Positions 1 through 6,934 of a stretch of 64,000 nt of DNA are shown in pieces. A program made the position numbers and the translations under genes. Each line of letters opens with the position of its first letter. The first letter of the stretch is position 1. Source of the stretch: Pandoraea apista (GTDB lineage Bacteria; Pseudomonadota; Gammaproteobacteria; Burkholderiales; Burkholderiaceae); the NCBI RefSeq assembly GCF_001465595.2, contig NZ_CP013481.2:1426001-1490000 (forward strand). The letters are read 5' to 3'. The notes under the pieces were generated by a model, which saw only the letters and a program-made list of their open reading frames with translations, had not been told where the DNA came from and did no database searches.

Positions 1-1471
1 TGGCCGTCGCCATGCCGATGATGAGCAGGATCGCACCGGAGAGTGCCGCCGTTTCCGTCAGCAGCGGATACAGACGTTTGAAGTTCAGGTGCTTCTTGAA
101 GGCGTGCACGAGAAGACCGATCACGATCGTGTAGGCGATACCGACCGTAGACACTTCGGTGGCCGTGGCGGCCCCTTCGATCACCGCCGTGCGAATCAGA
201 ATCGGCAGCGCGAGGGCAGGCAATGCCACGATGAATGTCTTACCGATCACGCTCCACGGCGCACGGCGTGCCGCGCTCGGGGCTTCCTTGCGCGAGCGGG
301 CGAAGCACACCACGACGATGGCGAGCGTGGCGATCACGGCAGGCAGCAAGCCGCCGACAAAGAGCGCGGTAATCGATACCCCGCACACCGCACCGATAGT
401 GATGAGCACGAGACTTGGCGGGATCGTCTCCGTCATGGCGCCGGTTGACGAAAGCAGCGCCACGAGGTCTTCCGGTTTCGACCCGCGCCGTTGCATCTCG
501 GGGAAGAGCGCGGGCGCGACGGCCGCCATGTCGGCAGCCTTCGAGCCAGAGATGCCCGAGACCAGGAACATGGCGCCAAGCAGCACGTATTGCAGACCGC
601 CTCGCACGTGGCCGAGCAGCGAGGCCATGAACTCGATCAGGCTGCGAGCGAGCCCGCTCATCTCGATCAACGCACCGAGCAGCACGAACAGCGGCACCGA
701 CAACAGAATGAGGCCCGACATGCCCTCGTCCATGCGGCTCACGACAATCTGCAACGGCGCGTCGGTCACGAGCGCCAGATACGCCAGCGTTGCCGTGCCG
801 AAGGCGAAGGCAATCGGAATCCCCCCCGCCACGCAGGCGCCGACGATCAGCACGAAGAACACCAGCAGGTTGTAGTTGCCCATCGCAATCAGCGCGGGGC
901 GGCCGAGCCAGAGCGCCGCGCCCAGCGCCGCGACGAACAGCACGCCGAGACCGAACTGACGCAGCGTGGAGCACCGCGCCATGCGCGAGATCGCGGCGAT
1001 GAGCATCAGCGCCGCGCCAACCGGCAACGCGGCAGCGCGCAGGCCGTCGGGGATTTCCAGCGCGGGCGTGGTGATGTCCATCTGTTCGATGGCATGCGTG
1101 TACGCAGGCATGATGATGAGAGCGACGAACACGCAGACCGTGAGCGCAGCCATGGTCTGGAACCAGTCCCGCCACGCCGCCGGAAGTTTGTTGACGATGG
1201 CGGAAAGACGCATGTGCTCACCCCGGTCGAGGGCCAGCACCGCGCCAAGCATCGATAGCCAGATGAACAGGATCTGCGCCAATTCGTCCGACCAGGTGAG
1301 GGGATTGTCGAACCCGTAACGCGAGATCACGCCCGCGAGCAGGATGAGAGTCTCCGCCACCACCAGCAGCACGGCAGCCGCTTCGGTGACTTTCATCACC
1401 GCGCGGTTGACATGGCAGAAGAGGCGGGCGAGCGCGTGCGTCGGCTCGGCCGTCATCGTCAACGTTTCCAT
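1..1471 (-). CDS. dctM: TRAP transporter fused DctQ-DctM permease, partial
   Basis: Inner-membrane part of a tripartite TRAP carboxylate importer, which takes substrate from the periplasmic DctP protein and moves it inward with an ion gradient. Reading from the ATG at 1471, 490 codons stay open to the window edge, so the C-terminus is missing. The first ~150 residues look like DctQ (hydrophobic helices with PLTWSDELAQILFIWL). A linker and DctM follow, with GLILLSVPLFVLLGALIEMS, GISGSKAADMAAVAP and STGAMTETIPPS, typical of the large permease. Q and M are therefore one polypeptide. The dctP stop codon (1472-1474) directly abuts this ATG, so the two are translationally coupled. The family is clear; the substrate is unknown. 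Confidence 0.93.
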   Translation of the reverse strand, partial: METLTMTAEPTHALARLFCHVNRAVMKVTEAAAVLLVVAETLILLAGVISRYGFDNPLTWSDELAQILFIWLSMLGAVLALDRGEHMRLSAIVNKLPAAWRDWFQTMAALTVCVFVALIIMPAYTHAIEQMDITTPALEIPDGLRAAALPVGAALMLIAAISRMARCSTLRQFGLGVLFVAALGAALWLGRPALIAMGNYNLLVFFVLIVGACVAGGIPIAFAFGTATLAYLALVTDAPLQIVVSRMDEGMSGLILLSVPLFVLLGALIEMSGLARSLIEFMASLLGHVRGGLQYVLLGAMFLVSGISGSKAADMAAVAPALFPEMQRRGSKPEDLVALLSSTGAMTETIPPSLVLITIGAVCGVSITALFVGGLLPAVIATLAIVVVCFARSRKEAPSAARRAPWSVIGKTFIVALPALALPILIRTAVIEGAATATEVSTVGIAYTIVIGLLVHAFKKHLNFKRLYPLLTETAALSGAILLIIGMATA

Positions 1472-2491
1472 TTACGCGAGCTTCCCGGTGTACTTTTCCA
1501 ACACGCTCCACGCCTCGTCGCCGAACTTCTTGTGCCATTCGGCATAGAAACCGGCCGTGCGGAGCTTCTCGCGGAACTGCTCGTTGTTCGGTGCGTTGAA
1601 CACGAGACCTTTCTGCTTGAGTTCGGCCATCACGCCGTCGTTGAGCTTGCGCACATCGTCGCGTTGCGCCATGGCTGCCGCGTTCACATTGGCGGTCACG
1701 ATCGCCTGCAAGTCCTTCGGCAACTTGTCCCACTTCTGCTTGTTGGCGAGGAACCAGAAGCCGTCCCACATATGGTTCGTCATCGACACGTACTTCTGCA
1801 CTTCGTACAGCTTCGCCGTGGTCAGCAGAGCAAGCGGATTTTCCTGTGCTTCGACGATATGCGTCTGCAAGGCCGAGTACACCTCGGCGAAGTTGATCGA
1901 CGTGGGCGACGAGTCGAACGCGCGGAACATCGACGTCCACAGCGGGCTCGTCGGCACACGGATCTTCAGGCCCTTGAGGTCGGCCGGCGAATTGATCGGA
2001 CGGCTGCTCGTCGTGATCTGGCGATATCCGTTTTCCCAGATCTTGTCGAACGCGAACACCGACGTCTTGGCGATCTGGCCACGCACGTGCGCCCCGAGGT
2101 CGCCGTCCATCGCTGCCCACACCTGACCGTAATCCTTGAACGCGAAGCCCACGCCGGAAATCTGCGCCGAGGGCACCAGCGTGCCGAGAATCAGCGGCGA
2201 GAGCGTGAAGAAGTCGATGGCGCCCGAGCGGATCTGGCTCAGCATGTCGCTGTCGGTGCCGAGCTGGTTATTCGGGTAGATCTGGAAGTCGATACGGCCC
2301 TTCGACTGCTCAGCAATTTTCTGCGCCATTTCTTTGGCGCGAATGTTCATCGGATGGCTGATGGGGAGGTTGTTGGCGAACTTCAGCGTGAATTCGGCGG
2401 CGCGGGCCTGCGTCTGATACAACCCCGTGGCGGCAGCGGCCGATGTGGCGGCCACAACCTTGATGAAGTGGCGGCGATCCATGTTGCTCAT
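1472..2491 (-). CDS. dctP: TRAP transporter substrate-binding protein DctP
   Basis: Periplasmic solute receptor of the TRAP system, 339 aa, the usual DctP length. I chose the ATG at 2491 because AGGAGA lies just upstream and the protein then opens with a Tat-like signal: R6-R7 in DRRHFIKVV, an Ala-rich hydrophobic stretch, and likely cleavage after ARA near residue 31. The mature part begins AEFTLKFANNLP and contains the DctP landmark RADIKGLKIRVP-like segment (here PADLKGLKIRVPTSPLW) and FAEVYSALQ. A longer frame reaches 2605 but would bury the signal peptide. It is transcribed first, before dctQM. A sigma54-type promoter lies about 130 bp upstream. The ligand is not predictable; a monocarboxylate or aromatic acid is plausible from the divergent ligase and thiolase. 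Confidence 0.95.
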   Translation of the reverse strand: MSNMDRRHFIKVVAATSAAAATGLYQTQARAAEFTLKFANNLPISHPMNIRAKEMAQKIAEQSKGRIDFQIYPNNQLGTDSDMLSQIRSGAIDFFTLSPLILGTLVPSAQISGVGFAFKDYGQVWAAMDGDLGAHVRGQIAKTSVFAFDKIWENGYRQITTSSRPINSPADLKGLKIRVPTSPLWTSMFRAFDSSPTSINFAEVYSALQTHIVEAQENPLALLTTAKLYEVQKYVSMTNHMWDGFWFLANKQKWDKLPKDLQAIVTANVNAAAMAQRDDVRKLNDGVMAELKQKGLVFNAPNNEQFREKLRTAGFYAEWHKKFGDEAWSVLEKYTGKLA

Positions 2492-2622: not shown

Positions 2623-2638
2623 CGCAAGTCGAATGCCA
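2623..2638 (-). promoter_or_regulatory. Sigma54 promoter for dctP-dctQM
   Basis: On the minus strand the sequence TGGCATTCGACTTGCG matches the sigma54 consensus TGGCAC-N5-TTGC, with the invariant GG and GC separated by exactly 10 bases. Transcription would start near 2611, giving a leader of about 120 nt before dctP. Promoters of this class need an enhancer-binding activator. The triple palindrome at 2816-2895 lies about 180 bp upstream, a normal enhancer distance. Confidence 0.75.
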
Positions 2639-2815
2639 GATCGCGGTCCCAACGGGAAAACCCTTACGTTGTTAAGCACTAGTGAAATCCCGTGTCCGAT
2701 GCATTGCATCGCGCTCCTTTCTTTTATCTGGCGGAACCCGGCGCGATGCCGCCCCGGCGTCGCAAAACGGGTTTGCTGCATCTGCGACGGGGGTCGGATC
2801 CGTGCTTGCGCGGGG

Positions 2816-2895
2816 TGATACACCTGTCGCATTTCTCGCGCGCCCTGCTACACCTGTCGCAGGGCGTCGGCAGGCAAGATGCGACAGGTGTTGCA
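2816..2895. promoter_or_regulatory. Triplicated 16-bp palindrome, shared enhancer (UAS)
   Basis: Three copies of one palindrome: TGATACACCTGTCGCA (2816-2831), TGCTACACCTGTCGCA (2846-2861) and, inverted, TGCAACACCTGTCGCA (2880-2895). They differ only at positions 3 and 4. Each has arms TGCnACA/TGTnGCA around CC, and they start 30 and 34 bp apart, about three helical turns. They lie near the middle of the 661-bp gap between dctP and the thiolase gene, roughly 180-200 bp from a sigma54-type promoter on each side. This is what an enhancer for a Fis-family activator would look like; no such activator gene is in the window. I see no convincing gene elsewhere in 2492-3152. A 13-bp palindrome (GATGCATTGCATC, 2698-2710) is the only other structure noted. 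Confidence 0.75.
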
Positions 2896-3096
2896 GGGCG
2901 CTGGCGCGGGACAGTCGTGTTGCAGCACAGCAAATTCGCTTCACCCGAGCGGCATCCGAATTCACTTGATGGCGCAATACGTACGGCTTTACGCTTACGT
3001 CAATTGCGAGAGCGCCAAAAGCGCGAGTGTCGCAATCGAGACGCAATGAGCAGGGAATGCCGTTGGCGCTTCATCAAGGGGAGATGCGCGCATGTC

Positions 3097-3112
3097 TGGC
3101 ATCGAAATTGCT
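3097..3112 (+). promoter_or_regulatory. Sigma54 promoter for the thiolase operon
   Basis: TGGCATCGAAATTGCT matches the sigma54 -24/-12 consensus with exactly 10 bases between GG and GC. Transcription would start near 3123, about 30 nt before the thiolase ATG at 3153. This also argues against the upstream in-frame ATG at 3027, which would lie before the transcript begins. Confidence 0.78.
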
Positions 3113-3152
3113 CACCGGAGTCTGGATGACCCCAATTTTCCGGAGACACTTC

Positions 3153-4319
3153 ATGGTTGCTGCATGCCTTACCGGCTGGGCCCACTCCCAGTTCGGAAAA
3201 CTCGATAACGTCGATGCCGAAGTTCTGCTGGCCGATGTTGCCCAAGCTGCGCTCGACGATGCGGGCCTTGCGCCCGAACAGATCGATTCCATTCACGTCG
3301 GCACTTTCAACGGCGGTTTTCTGTATCAGGATTTCCCGTCGTCGCTCGTCTTCAACCGAATTCCCGGCCTGCGCTTCAAACCCGCCACACGTTACGAAAA
3401 CGCCTGTGCGACGGGGTCGGCTGCCGTGCATGGCGGACTCCAATCCATCGAAGCGGGTAAGGCCACGCACGTACTCGTGATCGGCTTCGAGAAAATGACC
3501 GAGCTGGCTACGCCGCAGGTCGGCGAGGTGTTGCTCAAATGCTCCTACGCCCGGGAAGAGGCTGGCATTCCGGGGGGCTTTGCAGGGGTGTTCGGCACCA
3601 TTGCGCAAGCCTACTTCGACCGATATGGCGATCAATCCGATGCACTCGCGCGCATTGCGGCGAAGAACCACCGCAATGGTTCGGTCAATCCTTATGCGCA
3701 CATGCGTCGCGATTTCGGTTACGACTTCTGCCGCAACGTCTCTGAGAAAAATCCGTTCGTTGCCGGGCCGCTCAAGCGTACCGATTGTTCGATGGTGTCC
3801 GACGGCGCTGCGGCCCTCGTGATCTCGTCTGCCGATGTGGCGCGCACGATGCCCAAGGCCGTAGGATTTCGTGCGGCGGTGCAGGTCAACGACTACCTGC
3901 CGCTCTCGCGTCGCGATCCCCTGGCCTTTGAAGGCGGTCAGCACGCGTGGCGTCAGGCGCTGGGCGTTGCCGGCCTCTCGCTCAAAGACCTGTCGCTGGT
4001 CGAAACGCACGACTGCTTCACCATCGCCGAACTCATCGAGTATGAGGCGATGGGGCTCGCCAAGCCGGGGCAGGGCGCGAATGTGCTGGCCGAGGGGCTG
4101 ACCGAGAAGAACGGTTTGCTGCCGGTCAATCCATCGGGCGGGTTGAAGGCGAAAGGCCATCCGGTGGGGGCGACGGGCGTGTCGATGCACGTCATGGCGG
4201 CCATGCAACTCACAGGCACTGCCGGCGAGATGCAAATCCCCAACGCGAAGCTCGCGGGCGTTTTCAACATGGGCGGCGCGGCAGTGGCGAACTACGTGAG
4301 CATTCTCGAAGCGCGCTGA
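3153..4319 (+). CDS. Thiolase-family acyl-CoA acyltransferase (SCP-x type)
   Basis: Thiolase of 388 aa, expected to cleave or form a beta-ketoacyl-CoA. The nucleophile is Cys85 in YENACATGSAA. The catalytic histidines sit in ETHDCFT and in GGLKAKGHPVGATG. The usual C-terminal CMGGG loop is replaced by FNMGGAA, typical of the SCP-2/SCP-x thiolase branch rather than the FadA/PhaA branch. I chose the ATG at 3153 because GGAG lies 7 nt upstream and the sigma54 start site is only 30 nt away; the frame is open from 3027. It is the first gene of an operon with an acyl-CoA ligase and two PPC-domain proteins, which points to activation and thiolytic shortening of an imported acid. The usual DUF35 partner of such thiolases is absent. 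Confidence 0.9.
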   Translation: MVAACLTGWAHSQFGKLDNVDAEVLLADVAQAALDDAGLAPEQIDSIHVGTFNGGFLYQDFPSSLVFNRIPGLRFKPATRYENACATGSAAVHGGLQSIEAGKATHVLVIGFEKMTELATPQVGEVLLKCSYAREEAGIPGGFAGVFGTIAQAYFDRYGDQSDALARIAAKNHRNGSVNPYAHMRRDFGYDFCRNVSEKNPFVAGPLKRTDCSMVSDGAAALVISSADVARTMPKAVGFRAAVQVNDYLPLSRRDPLAFEGGQHAWRQALGVAGLSLKDLSLVETHDCFTIAELIEYEAMGLAKPGQGANVLAEGLTEKNGLLPVNPSGGLKAKGHPVGATGVSMHVMAAMQLTGTAGEMQIPNAKLAGVFNMGGAAVANYVSILEAR

Positions 4320-4413
4320 TCCATTGCGCGACAGCGTGTCAGGCGGGCTGCCCGGCGTTGGCCGGGCAAGACAGACAGCAAGACTGAGAAAGAAGAAAGA
4401 GGAGACGAGCGAA

Positions 4414-5991
4414 ATGCTCAAGAAGGTCATGAATCTCGGCCGCCTGCTGGCCGACGTTGCCCGGCGTCATCCCGATGAGCCCGGCGTGATCATCGGCGAG
4501 ACGGTCAGCACATGGGGTGAGATCGACGCCCGCGTGAATGCCGCCGTCGAAGCCTTGCGCAAGCTGGGGGTGGGCAAGGGCGACAAGCTGCTGGTGCATT
4601 CGCGCAATAACCTGCCTATCTTCGAGAGCGCGTGGATCGCCTTTCGGCTGGGCGCGATCTGGGTGCCTACGAACTTTCGCATCACTGCGCCGGAGGCCGC
4701 GTATCTGGGCCAGTCGAGCGGTGCGTGCGTGATGATCTACGACGCCGGCTTCGAGGGGCATGTCGATGCGGTGCGGGCTGCGTCGCCTGCATTGCGGCAT
4801 GTGATAGCGCTGGGCGCGCCGCGTGCCGGCGAGCTGCACTACGAGACCCTCGTGGCTGAGCATCTCGGCGCCCCGGGCTACGAGGCAGAAGTCGAGTACG
4901 AAGATCCTCTGTGGTTCTTCTACACGTCGGGTACGACCGGGCATCCGAAGGCGGGCGTGCTCTCCCACGGGCAGATGGCTTTTGTCGTGACCAACCATCT
5001 GGCCGATCTGATGCCCGGCATTACCTACCGCAGCCGCTCAATGGTGGTGGCGCCGCTCTCGCATGGCGCGGGCATTCACGCCATCGTCAATACCGCGCGC
5101 GGGGCGGCGAGCGTGCTGCTGCCGGGCGAGAAGATGGATGCGGAGCAGGTCTGGCGGGCCATCGAGCGTCATCGCGTCGACAACATGTTCACGGTGCCGA
5201 CTATCGTGAAGATGCTGGTCGAGGACCCGGCCGTCGACCGTTACGACCATAGCTCGTTGCGTTTCGTGATCTATGCCGGGGCGCCAATGTACCGTGCCGA
5301 TCAGAAATACGCACTGCAAAAGCTGGGCCGGGTGCTGGTTCAGTACTACGGGCTGGGCGAGGTGACGGGCAACATCACCGTATTGCCGCCGTGGCTGCAC
5401 AGTGAGGACGACGACGCTCCCGACGCGCGCATCGGCACCTGCGGCGTGCCGCGCACCGGCATGGAGGTGGCAATTCTCGACGAGCGCGGCGAGCGTCAGC
5501 CGCCGTTCGCGTCGGGCGAGATTTGCGTGCGCGGGCCGGCCGTCTTCATGGGGTATCACAACAACCCGGACGCGAACGCCAAGGCGTTCAAGAACGACTG
5601 GTTCCACACCGGAGACCTCGGTCATGTGGATGCGCAGGGCTTCCTGTACATCACCGGGCGAGCGTCGGACATGTACATCTCGGGCGGATCGAACGTCTAT
5701 CCGCGCGAGATCGAGGAAGCGTTGCTCACGCACCCGGCCGTTTCCGAGTGCGCGGTGCTCGGCGTGCCCGACCCCAAATGGGGCGAGAGCGGGCTCGCGG
5801 TGGTGGTCGCCCGGGAAGGCATGGCCGCTCAGGCCGATGAACTGCTCGGACATCTCGAAGCGCGTATCGCCCGCTACAAGTGGCCGCGTCGCTTCGTATT
5901 CTGGAGTGCCATGCCCAAGTCGGGCTACGGCAAGATCGTGAAGAAGCAAATCAAGACGATGCTCGAAGAGCAAGGAGACTATCGACTATGA
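4414..5991 (+). CDS. AMP-dependent acyl-CoA synthetase/ligase
   Basis: ATP-dependent CoA ligase (ANL superfamily), 525 aa, which activates a carboxylic acid through an acyl-adenylate. The P-loop signature YTSGTTGHPKAG is at residues 170-181, the YYGLGEVTGN motif near 311, the HTGDLGHVD hinge region and GRASDMYISGGSNVYP follow, and the catalytic lysine is in SGYGKIVKK near 507. The ATG at 4414 follows GAGGAGA; an upstream in-frame ATG at 4324 would add a basic, non-family leader. The 94-bp gap after the thiolase has no obvious promoter. The stop overlaps the next ATG (ATGA at 5988). The acid substrate cannot be told from sequence; it is probably the ligand of the divergent TRAP transporter. 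Confidence 0.92.
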   Translation: MLKKVMNLGRLLADVARRHPDEPGVIIGETVSTWGEIDARVNAAVEALRKLGVGKGDKLLVHSRNNLPIFESAWIAFRLGAIWVPTNFRITAPEAAYLGQSSGACVMIYDAGFEGHVDAVRAASPALRHVIALGAPRAGELHYETLVAEHLGAPGYEAEVEYEDPLWFFYTSGTTGHPKAGVLSHGQMAFVVTNHLADLMPGITYRSRSMVVAPLSHGAGIHAIVNTARGAASVLLPGEKMDAEQVWRAIERHRVDNMFTVPTIVKMLVEDPAVDRYDHSSLRFVIYAGAPMYRADQKYALQKLGRVLVQYYGLGEVTGNITVLPPWLHSEDDDAPDARIGTCGVPRTGMEVAILDERGERQPPFASGEICVRGPAVFMGYHNNPDANAKAFKNDWFHTGDLGHVDAQGFLYITGRASDMYISGGSNVYPREIEEALLTHPAVSECAVLGVPDPKWGESGLAVVVAREGMAAQADELLGHLEARIARYKWPRRFVFWSAMPKSGYGKIVKKQIKTMLEEQGDYRL

Positions 5992-6524
5992 AACCTGCGC
6001 TTTCACGGATCTATCGGCATGCAGGCGCCCCCACGTTACCCCGTGTGGAAGACTGCGTGTTGAGCGGGCAGCACGAACTGCGCGTGACGATCCGGTCTGG
6101 TGCGAATCTCGGCGAGGCCCTGCGCGCGGCGTTATCCCGCTATGCGTACGGCGGCGGCGTCGGCCGTTTCTGCGCGGGTACCGCGCGAGGTCTGCGGTAT
6201 CACATGATCGAGAACACCGCAGACACGGAGCGTCCCTTCGGTTATGGGGCGCCGGTCGACGAAACCCGGGAAGTGGATCTGATCGGCGGCGCAATCACGG
6301 TCGGCCGCACAGCCGACGGTGCCACGCTGTTGCATTGCCATGCGGGGTTTTCCGATCCGTCGGGCGAGTTGCACGGCGGTCATCTGATTCTCGATCACAC
6401 CTGGGCCGGCGACGAGCCCGTGGTAATTCGGCTGTGTTTGTTCGAACACGGCGGATACGTGACCGCAGACGACGAGGAGACACGCTTTCATCTGCTCCAT
6501 CCGGTTGCCGGAGGTCTCTCATGA
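5988..6524 (+). CDS. PPC/DUF296-domain protein (first of a pair)
   Basis: A 178-aa cytoplasmic protein. Residues about 20-170 resemble the PPC (DUF296) fold, including LLHCHAGFSDPSGELHGGHL, the His- and Gly-rich segment that lines the trimer interface in this family. Its ATG overlaps the ligase stop and AAGGAG precedes it, so it is translationally coupled; it overlaps the next PPC gene in the same way. The biochemical role is not known. A small-molecule binding or accessory role for the ligase and thiolase is inference from the operon only. Confidence 0.75.
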   Translation: MKPALSRIYRHAGAPTLPRVEDCVLSGQHELRVTIRSGANLGEALRAALSRYAYGGGVGRFCAGTARGLRYHMIENTADTERPFGYGAPVDETREVDLIGGAITVGRTADGATLLHCHAGFSDPSGELHGGHLILDHTWAGDEPVVIRLCLFEHGGYVTADDEETRFHLLHPVAGGLS

Positions 6525-6934
6525 GCGCAGCACTGGATGTTCCGGTCGCCATCGAGAACGGCACACTGGGCAGGTTGGTCGTGGCGCGTCTCAAGCCGAA
6601 TCAGGATCTGACGGAAAGCATCGAAGCGCTGTGCGCAGAGCACGGCATATCGCGCGCCATCGTGCGCGGCGCAGTGGGCAGTCTGATCGATGCACGTTTG
6701 GCGTTCCGCGCAGGTGATGGCTGGCGTGAGCAACTGGTGAGCGGCCCGGGGGTGGAGATTCTCAACGTGTTCGGGGAGGTCGATGTCCGGCCCGACGCCG
6801 CGCATGCGCTGCCCATGCTGCACGGCATGGTGGCGGACACCGACGGGCGCATGTTCGCCGGGCGCTTCGTGCGGGGAGGGAACCTCTCGTTCATCACTAT
6901 CGAAGTGACGTTGCAGGAGTGGTTGCCAGCGTAG
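6521..6934 (+). CDS. PPC/DUF296-domain protein (second of a pair)
   Basis: A 137-aa single-domain PPC (DUF296) protein. It shows the family signature well: GRLVVARLKPNQDLTESIEA at the start, HGISRAIVRGAVGSLIDA, GPGVEILNVFGEV, and HGMVADTDGRMFAGRFVRGG near the end. In plants the same fold follows AT-hooks; here there is none, so it is a free-standing bacterial version. ATGA overlap with the preceding gene. It is the last gene of the sigma54-driven operon and is followed at once by a terminator. Function unknown; two adjacent diverged copies suggest a hetero-oligomer, which is an inference. Confidence 0.85.
   Translation: MSAALDVPVAIENGTLGRLVVARLKPNQDLTESIEALCAEHGISRAIVRGAVGSLIDARLAFRAGDGWREQLVSGPGVEILNVFGEVDVRPDAAHALPMLHGMVADTDGRMFAGRFVRGGNLSFITIEVTLQEWLPA

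Follow-up and report, generated by a model that had tools for sequence, protein, structure and literature searches.

The 64,000-nucleotide stretch of DNA analyzed here (the window, G000:C1:1426001-1490000 of a 5.57-Mb genome) contains a gap from which two sets of genes are read in opposite directions. The gap separates a minus-strand dctP gene from a plus-strand thiolase gene, whose closest named relatives are from Pandoraea, and holds two sigma54 elements with three 16-bp sites between them (Table 1). The reading that we favor, with a probability of roughly 0.85, is that the gap acts as a control region shared by both gene sets, in which a sigma54 activator, here called R1, would act from the three sites to open both sigma54 promoters, so that uptake and CoA activation of what is predicted to be a carboxylate substrate would be co-produced.

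Table 1. Features of the dctP/thiolase region, in window coordinates.
Feature	Position	Strand	Evidence or remark
dctQM, fused TRAP permease	1..1471, continues left of window	minus	TIGR00786 dctM 280 bits (cut-off 268); L024:15594-17471
dctP, TRAP solute-binding protein	1472..2491	minus	Pfam DctP 261 bits; TIGR00787; reading frame checked
sigma54 -24/-12 element TGGCATTCGACTTGCG	2638-2623	minus	predicted dctP operon promoter; alignment conservation 0.93-0.96; in 18/18 Pandoraea loci
Conserved island CGTAAGGGTTTTCCCG	2653..2668, within 2650-2673	minus	directly upstream of dctP sigma54 element; sole exact genome copy
Putative enhancer site 1 TGATACACCTGTCGCA	2816-2831	plus	2 mismatches to TGCGACANNTGTCGCA
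Putative enhancer site 2 TGCTACACCTGTCGCA	2846-2861	plus	1 mismatch to TGCGACANNTGTCGCA
Putative enhancer site 3 TGCAACACCTGTCGCA	2880-2895	minus	1 mismatch to TGCGACANNTGTCGCA
LiuR-like operator TTTACGCTTACGTCAA	2988..3003	plus	conserved; between enhancer and thiolase promoter
sigma54 -24/-12 element TGGCATCGAAATTGCT	3097-3112	plus	predicted thiolase operon promoter; alignment conservation 0.98-0.99; in 18/18 Pandoraea loci
Thiolase-domain protein	3153..4319	plus	NF005704/PRK07516 655 bits (cut-off 412)
Acyl-CoA synthetase (AMP-forming)	4324..5991, start approximate	plus	NF005676/PRK07470 895 bits (cut-off 774)
PCC-domain-like protein 1 (PCC1)	5952..6524, start approximate	plus	PF03479 23.8 bits, just under cut-off 25
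PCC-domain protein 2	6518..6934	plus	PF03479 59.9 bits

The leftward operon would serve uptake (DctP, DctQM and an SDR protein, whose gene comes after dctQM) and the rightward operon CoA activation and cleavage (acyl-CoA synthetase, thiolase and the two PCC proteins). By eye, dctP likely starts at the ATG at 2491, which is preceded by AGGAGA, and the ribosome site of the thiolase gene is GGAG at 3142. The two sigma54 elements reported in the first-pass annotation can be read directly from the DNA and face outward, and both have GG-N10-GC in a TGGCAC-N5-TTGCW context. Set against TGGCAY-N5-TTGCW, the plus element fits and the minus element ends in G, not W. The genome has one copy of rpoN (PF04552, 225.8 bits). 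The bare TGGC-N7-TTGC pattern occurs 11 times in the window against 3.45 expected (none of 100 shuffles reached 11) and such an element by itself is little proof of a promoter; both of the positions considered here are conserved across genera. A second GG-N10-GC element, GGCCGGGACGTTGC, is present in the dctP leader at 2560-2573 on the minus strand, 64 bp downstream of the first, and many relatives have a TGGC-N7-TTGC match at this place in the leader, at 43-94 bp.

Between the promoters, the sequence TGNNACACCTGTCGCA accounts for exactly three matches in the window, with start-to-start steps of 30 and 34 bp. These had been described as three identical palindromic copies; the copies and the steps stand, and the third copy proved to be inverted. 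In each site one half (TGTCGCA) is intact and the other is altered, and the bases given as variable ("nn") in the original 16-mer are the altered half of a palindrome, TGCGACA-NN-TGTCGCA, that is intact in most relatives. The three copies are the sole sites in the 64 kb with at most two mismatches to TGCGACANNTGTCGCA, and when the 458-bp spacer was simulated 4000 times (first-order Markov) and searched by the same criterion, 3983 spacers had no site, 17 had one and none had more. Genome-wide, the exact 16-mer of the first-pass annotation is not scattered but is found at the gap only, and TGYNACACCTGTNGCA with at most one mismatch, a search that covers this 16-mer, gave 10 matches compared with nine for the reversed control. 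Neither the target of R1 nor that of its paralog R2 (see below) has a perfectly palindromic site in this genome, so activation in this strain may be weaker.

To place these features in context, relatives were sampled as 80 thiolase loci comprising 1,545,604 bases (1.55 Mb). All 18 Pandoraea loci have, in order, a minus element, between one and three sites with no more than one mismatch, and a plus element, and the same order with a perfect site is found in 20 of the 22 Herbaspirillum/Duganella loci, the exceptions being L048, whose upstream DNA is too short, and L064, which is a second copy in Herbaspirillum and lacks all of these parts. In three Burkholderia/Paraburkholderia loci (L069, L070, and L072) two elements flank a perfect site, the plus element showing one departure. 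Steps of 30-31 and 33-34 bp recur in 16 of the 18 Pandoraea loci (L043 has a step of 22 and L044 one site). Conservation in the Pandoraea alignment is 0.36-0.6 in the left spacer, 0.75-0.89 in the sites and 0.93-0.99 in the sigma54 elements, the element before the thiolase being at the top of the alignment and level with thiolase coding DNA; other conserved stretches include two operator-like islands and the leaders. The 80 loci together yield 77 sites at a limit of one mismatch, of which 73 lie no more than 750 bp upstream of the thiolase. Three more are upstream of PCC1 in rearranged clusters, where L088, L096, and L103 have exact sites, and one is elsewhere, in L064; L088 has a site before the thiolase, but a strict sigma54 element is absent there. 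A profile built from the 84 sites that have two mismatches or fewer, a selection that biases it toward the consensus, has G at position 4 in 84/84 and nearly invariant ACA and TGT cores. The distance from site to sigma54 element ranges from 76 to 419 bp, one stray second site in L065 having been set aside. That the repeats arose by chance, or are a widespread genomic repeat without regulatory function, draws on the occurrence of the bare sigma54 pattern elsewhere in the window and on the control-level count of one-mismatch 16-mers in the genome, but is contradicted by the spacer simulations, the conservation, the placement of sites in the 80 loci and the confinement of sites to R1 and R2 loci described below, and we give it almost no weight.

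The first-pass annotation had predicted a Fis-type activator gene outside the window, to the left of its first base. A search of the genome for sigma54 activators returned nine strong and five weak matches, and the nearest strong match, R1 (G000:C1:1417218-1418459, 413 residues), is 7.5 kb left of base 1 and linked to the cluster, which makes it the likely candidate. R1 has a sigma54 AAA+ domain (PF00158, 211 bits) with a Walker A motif and a GAFTGA-type loop, a lid domain, and a Fis-type DNA-binding domain (HTH_8, PF02954, 48.1 bits). The loop reads GAFSGA in R1 and in 52/52 of its relatives, and the portion of PMC4641369 consulted places GAFSGA among the loop variants expected to stay active. 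The Pfam search identified no domain, sensory or other, before residue 64. In stop-to-stop frames the N-terminus of R1 relatives is variable, and a 361-residue form is also predicted. Relative to 44 R1 relatives, some of which are probably the same species, the only departure of R1 from columns conserved at 90% or more is E92D in Walker A. We considered whether the R1 helix of this strain had been altered to suit its changed half-sites and rejected this, as the helix matches that of other Pandoraea.

R1 lies back-to-back with a LysR gene and travels with the gene cluster across genera. An R1 relative was identified within the examined DNA in 52 of the 80 loci and, by a distance rule, a divergent LysR gene is beside it in 49/52; the open frames overlap in two of the exceptions (L036 and L084) and the third, L086, shows no LysR. 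In this genome R1 is displaced from the cluster by inserted IclR, alcohol dehydrogenase and MFS genes, and the same genes are present in L029 and L031. At L024:9691-13565, between the LysR and SDR genes, these are an IclR gene, an iron-type alcohol dehydrogenase gene and an aromatic-acid-type MFS gene. An AT-rich, fairly conserved segment between R1 and LysR (L024:8595-8630) is a possible LysR-box region.

A paralog of R1, R2, shares 54-55% identity with R1 and is nearer (64-66%) to the R1 relatives of L069, L070, L072, and L073. The LysR protein encoded beside R2 is 54% identical to that beside R1, and the other neighbors of R2 encode an adenylation-carrier-reductase protein, an aminotransferase and a phosphopantetheinyl transferase-like protein. 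Upstream of the transferase gene there are two 16-mers (2 mismatches) and a sigma54 element, TGGCATCCAAATTGCT; in the 10 relatives with a fetched R2 site, the site is perfect and has one sigma54 element near it. The segment L025:1188-11294, with R2, its LysR and biosynthesis-like genes, is possibly a small secondary-metabolite unit.

The association of site and regulator was examined both in whole genomes and in the named loci, two sets of counts that are not independent because they overlap in species, the genus of the whole genomes being inferred from named relatives. The 32 genus genomes contain 73 exact sites, compared with three for the reversed-pattern control, and 69 of the 73 are within 15 kb of R1 (52) or R2 (17). 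The four elsewhere comprise two in G004, whose R1 lies on a separate contig, one on G001:C6 and one in G020. An exact site is near R1 in 27 of 30 genomes and near R2 in 17 of 21, and the genome of the window is one that has no exact site near either. In an order-wide draw of 150 genomes the exact site was present in five, with seven sites in total (control, one), and the only R1 match to pass 1e-92 among the order genomes, judged in many of them on at most 12 candidates, was the window's own. TGGC-N7-TTGC lies within 500 bp of the site in 26 of 28 genus site loci, so the proposed tie between sites and sigma54 elements extends to relatives, compared with one of seven sites (two overlapping) in genomes where R1 was not found.

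For the named loci a two-by-two comparison was made with 67 usable loci, 12 having been set aside because R1 could lie outside the DNA examined and one because it was too short. A site with at most three mismatches is present in 44/52 loci with R1 and 4/15 without (p = 4.5e-5); with at most two mismatches the counts are 38/52 and 4/15 (p = 0.0019), and with at most one they are 33/52 and 4/15 (p = 0.018), although these p values are only a guide because the loci are related. Similarly, the plus-strand sigma54 element is found in 49/52 loci with R1 and the divergent pair in 43/52, each against 4/15 without R1. The R1 loci that lack a site number 19/52 at one mismatch (15 of them Pseudomonas) and 8/52 at three (five Pseudomonas). 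Four of the 15 loci have a site with no R1 within the examined DNA, namely L029, L031, L049, and L034; R1 may lie beyond the 10 kb examined in L029 and L031, since they have the same inserted genes as this genome, and the sequence of L049 begins at the LysR gene.

The recognition helix of R1 mostly changes where the site changes. Of the 33 loci with the helix RASLYRKL, 31 have, upstream of the thiolase, a site with no more than one mismatch, the exceptions being L067, which has the standard helix and no site with two or fewer mismatches, and L086. Such a site is absent from all 15 Pseudomonas loci in which the helix is RPSLYRVL or a near variant (ending in YRV or YRI plus one residue), and their gaps contain altered 16-mers, for instance AGCGACAGGTGTCTCC; as these loci are one lineage, the shift of helix and site may be a single change. 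L096 and L103 contradict a simple helix-site rule, having the helix RSTLYRQL and yet a perfect site upstream of PCC1.

These two loci bear on whether R1 binds the palindromes at all, as it is conceivable that they are bound by the LysR protein encoded next to R1 and that R1 acts elsewhere. A perfect site retained despite a different R1 helix would fit binding by LysR, and linkage alone cannot separate the two proteins, because they are co-inherited (49/52 loci) and both duplicated at the R2 locus. The LysR box is T-N11-A, however, and by its geometry an even 16-bp palindrome cannot contain a centered box of this form. Moreover, sigma54 enhancers act over a range of distances that covers the 76-419 bp found here, and the tendency of the R1 helix to change where the site changes points to R1. 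We therefore judge binding by LysR to be improbable.

A second question is whether the sites serve both promoters, or one only, with the other sigma54 element inactive or under another activator. Eight Herbaspirillum loci lend themselves to the latter, in that the site is 320-419 bp from their thiolase element but still 143-155 bp from the dctP element, and the sites at the R2 locus and in the rearranged clusters serve a single promoter. In contrast, every one of the 18 Pandoraea loci retains both elements along with the sites, and the coding-level conservation of the thiolase element argues for its use. In some Pseudomonas loci, furthermore, the TRAP genes have moved off and the thiolase keeps a sigma54 element and a weak 16-mer (3-4 mismatches), although shuffled DNA, in which single-base composition only was kept, reached a site-like 16-mer with three mismatches in 5/200 trials and with four in 47/200. 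Service of one promoter is in our view unlikely, if less so than binding by LysR.

Under the shared-control reading, R1 would thus be a sensorless sigma54 activator that binds three enhancer sites near the middle of the gap, and DNA looping in either direction would allow it to open the two outward promoters in a process that would need RpoN. As R1 would open both, the proteins for uptake and for CoA activation and cleavage would be made together; the proposal that transport and CoA activation are switched on jointly by one Fis-type activator is well supported, as far as comparison with relatives can carry it. Because R1 is without a sensing domain, the signal most likely enters via the neighboring LysR protein, which would set the level or activity of R1. 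We also considered, as a doubtful extension, that LysR and R1 might be a split one-component system, with LysR supplying the ligand input by acting directly on R1, in the form of a portable two-gene cassette, duplicated as R1 and R2, that has been joined along with its 16-bp site to distinct sets of metabolic genes.

Group 4 bacterial enhancer-binding proteins such as PspF and HrpR/HrpS consist of AAA+ and HTH domains and have no regulatory domain, according to the text consulted of PMC7175178. R1 likewise has AAA+ and HTH without a regulatory domain, consistent with group 4, but differs from PspF and HrpR/HrpS in its GAFSGA loop, its LysR neighbor and its transport and CoA-activation cluster. 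For R1, the LysR neighbor is a candidate for the trans-acting partner of a group 4 protein. Some R1 relatives are named "Acetoin catabolism regulatory protein" in databases (among the best 120 of 4114 matches). We rejected R1 as a member of the AcoR type, a ligand-sensing, domain-bearing group 2 activator (PMC7175178, in part), since by Pfam its N-terminal ligand-sensing domain is absent. A precedent for divergent sigma54 operons with a shared predicted activator motif comes from the type III secretion genes of Desulfovibrio, with DVUA0100 (PMC4641369, section consulted). The activator, site and genes differ from those considered here, where there are three sites at approximately three-turn steps in most Pandoraea. 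In Klebsiella, nifH and nifJ are divergent sigma54 operons with common upstream sites for NifA, of the form TGT-N10-ACA. The site described here is likewise a 16-bp even palindrome for a Fis-type HTH but is TGC-N10-GCA with a long conserved core. The regulon prediction is well supported by sequence comparison and of a kind already known, both in its divergent sigma54 operons and in its sensorless activator, and the less usual part is the cassette of LysR and sensorless activator with its own site. Among the literature matches listed, and in the part of PMC6449761 consulted, there was no description of this cluster, and TGCGACACCTGTCGCA had no literature match; the regulon may nevertheless have been published elsewhere. 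For a transport and CoA-activation cluster that occurs in Pandoraea, Herbaspirillum, Paraburkholderia, and Pseudomonas, the analysis defines an operator, names a candidate activator and predicts a small regulon, and both the regulator and the site are open to direct testing. The position of a sensorless activator beside a LysR gene raises the question of how the signal gets in.

Two further conserved elements were noted in the gap. The core of the island beside the dctP promoter, GGGAAAACCCTTACG, recurs in each of the 18 Pandoraea loci, with no more than two mismatches, and in none of the others among the 80; the island was considered as a common genome motif and this was rejected, as GGGTTTTCCC has its exact copy here only. 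By eye, no convincing IHF site was seen between enhancer and promoter. The operator before the thiolase promoter, which we liken to the LiuR motif, is present as TTTACGCTTACGTCAA with at most one mismatch in 16/18 Pandoraea loci. This genome also has a similar operator where a MerR-family gene begins; NCBIfam gives the product of that gene no LiuR name, and the parts consulted of the LiuR/MerR literature on Burkholderiales gave no motif letters. Five Herbaspirillum loci have a perfect palindrome, TTTACGTTAACGTAAA, in the corresponding gap, and the conservation of an operator of this kind ahead of the thiolase promoter suggests an additional level of regulation.
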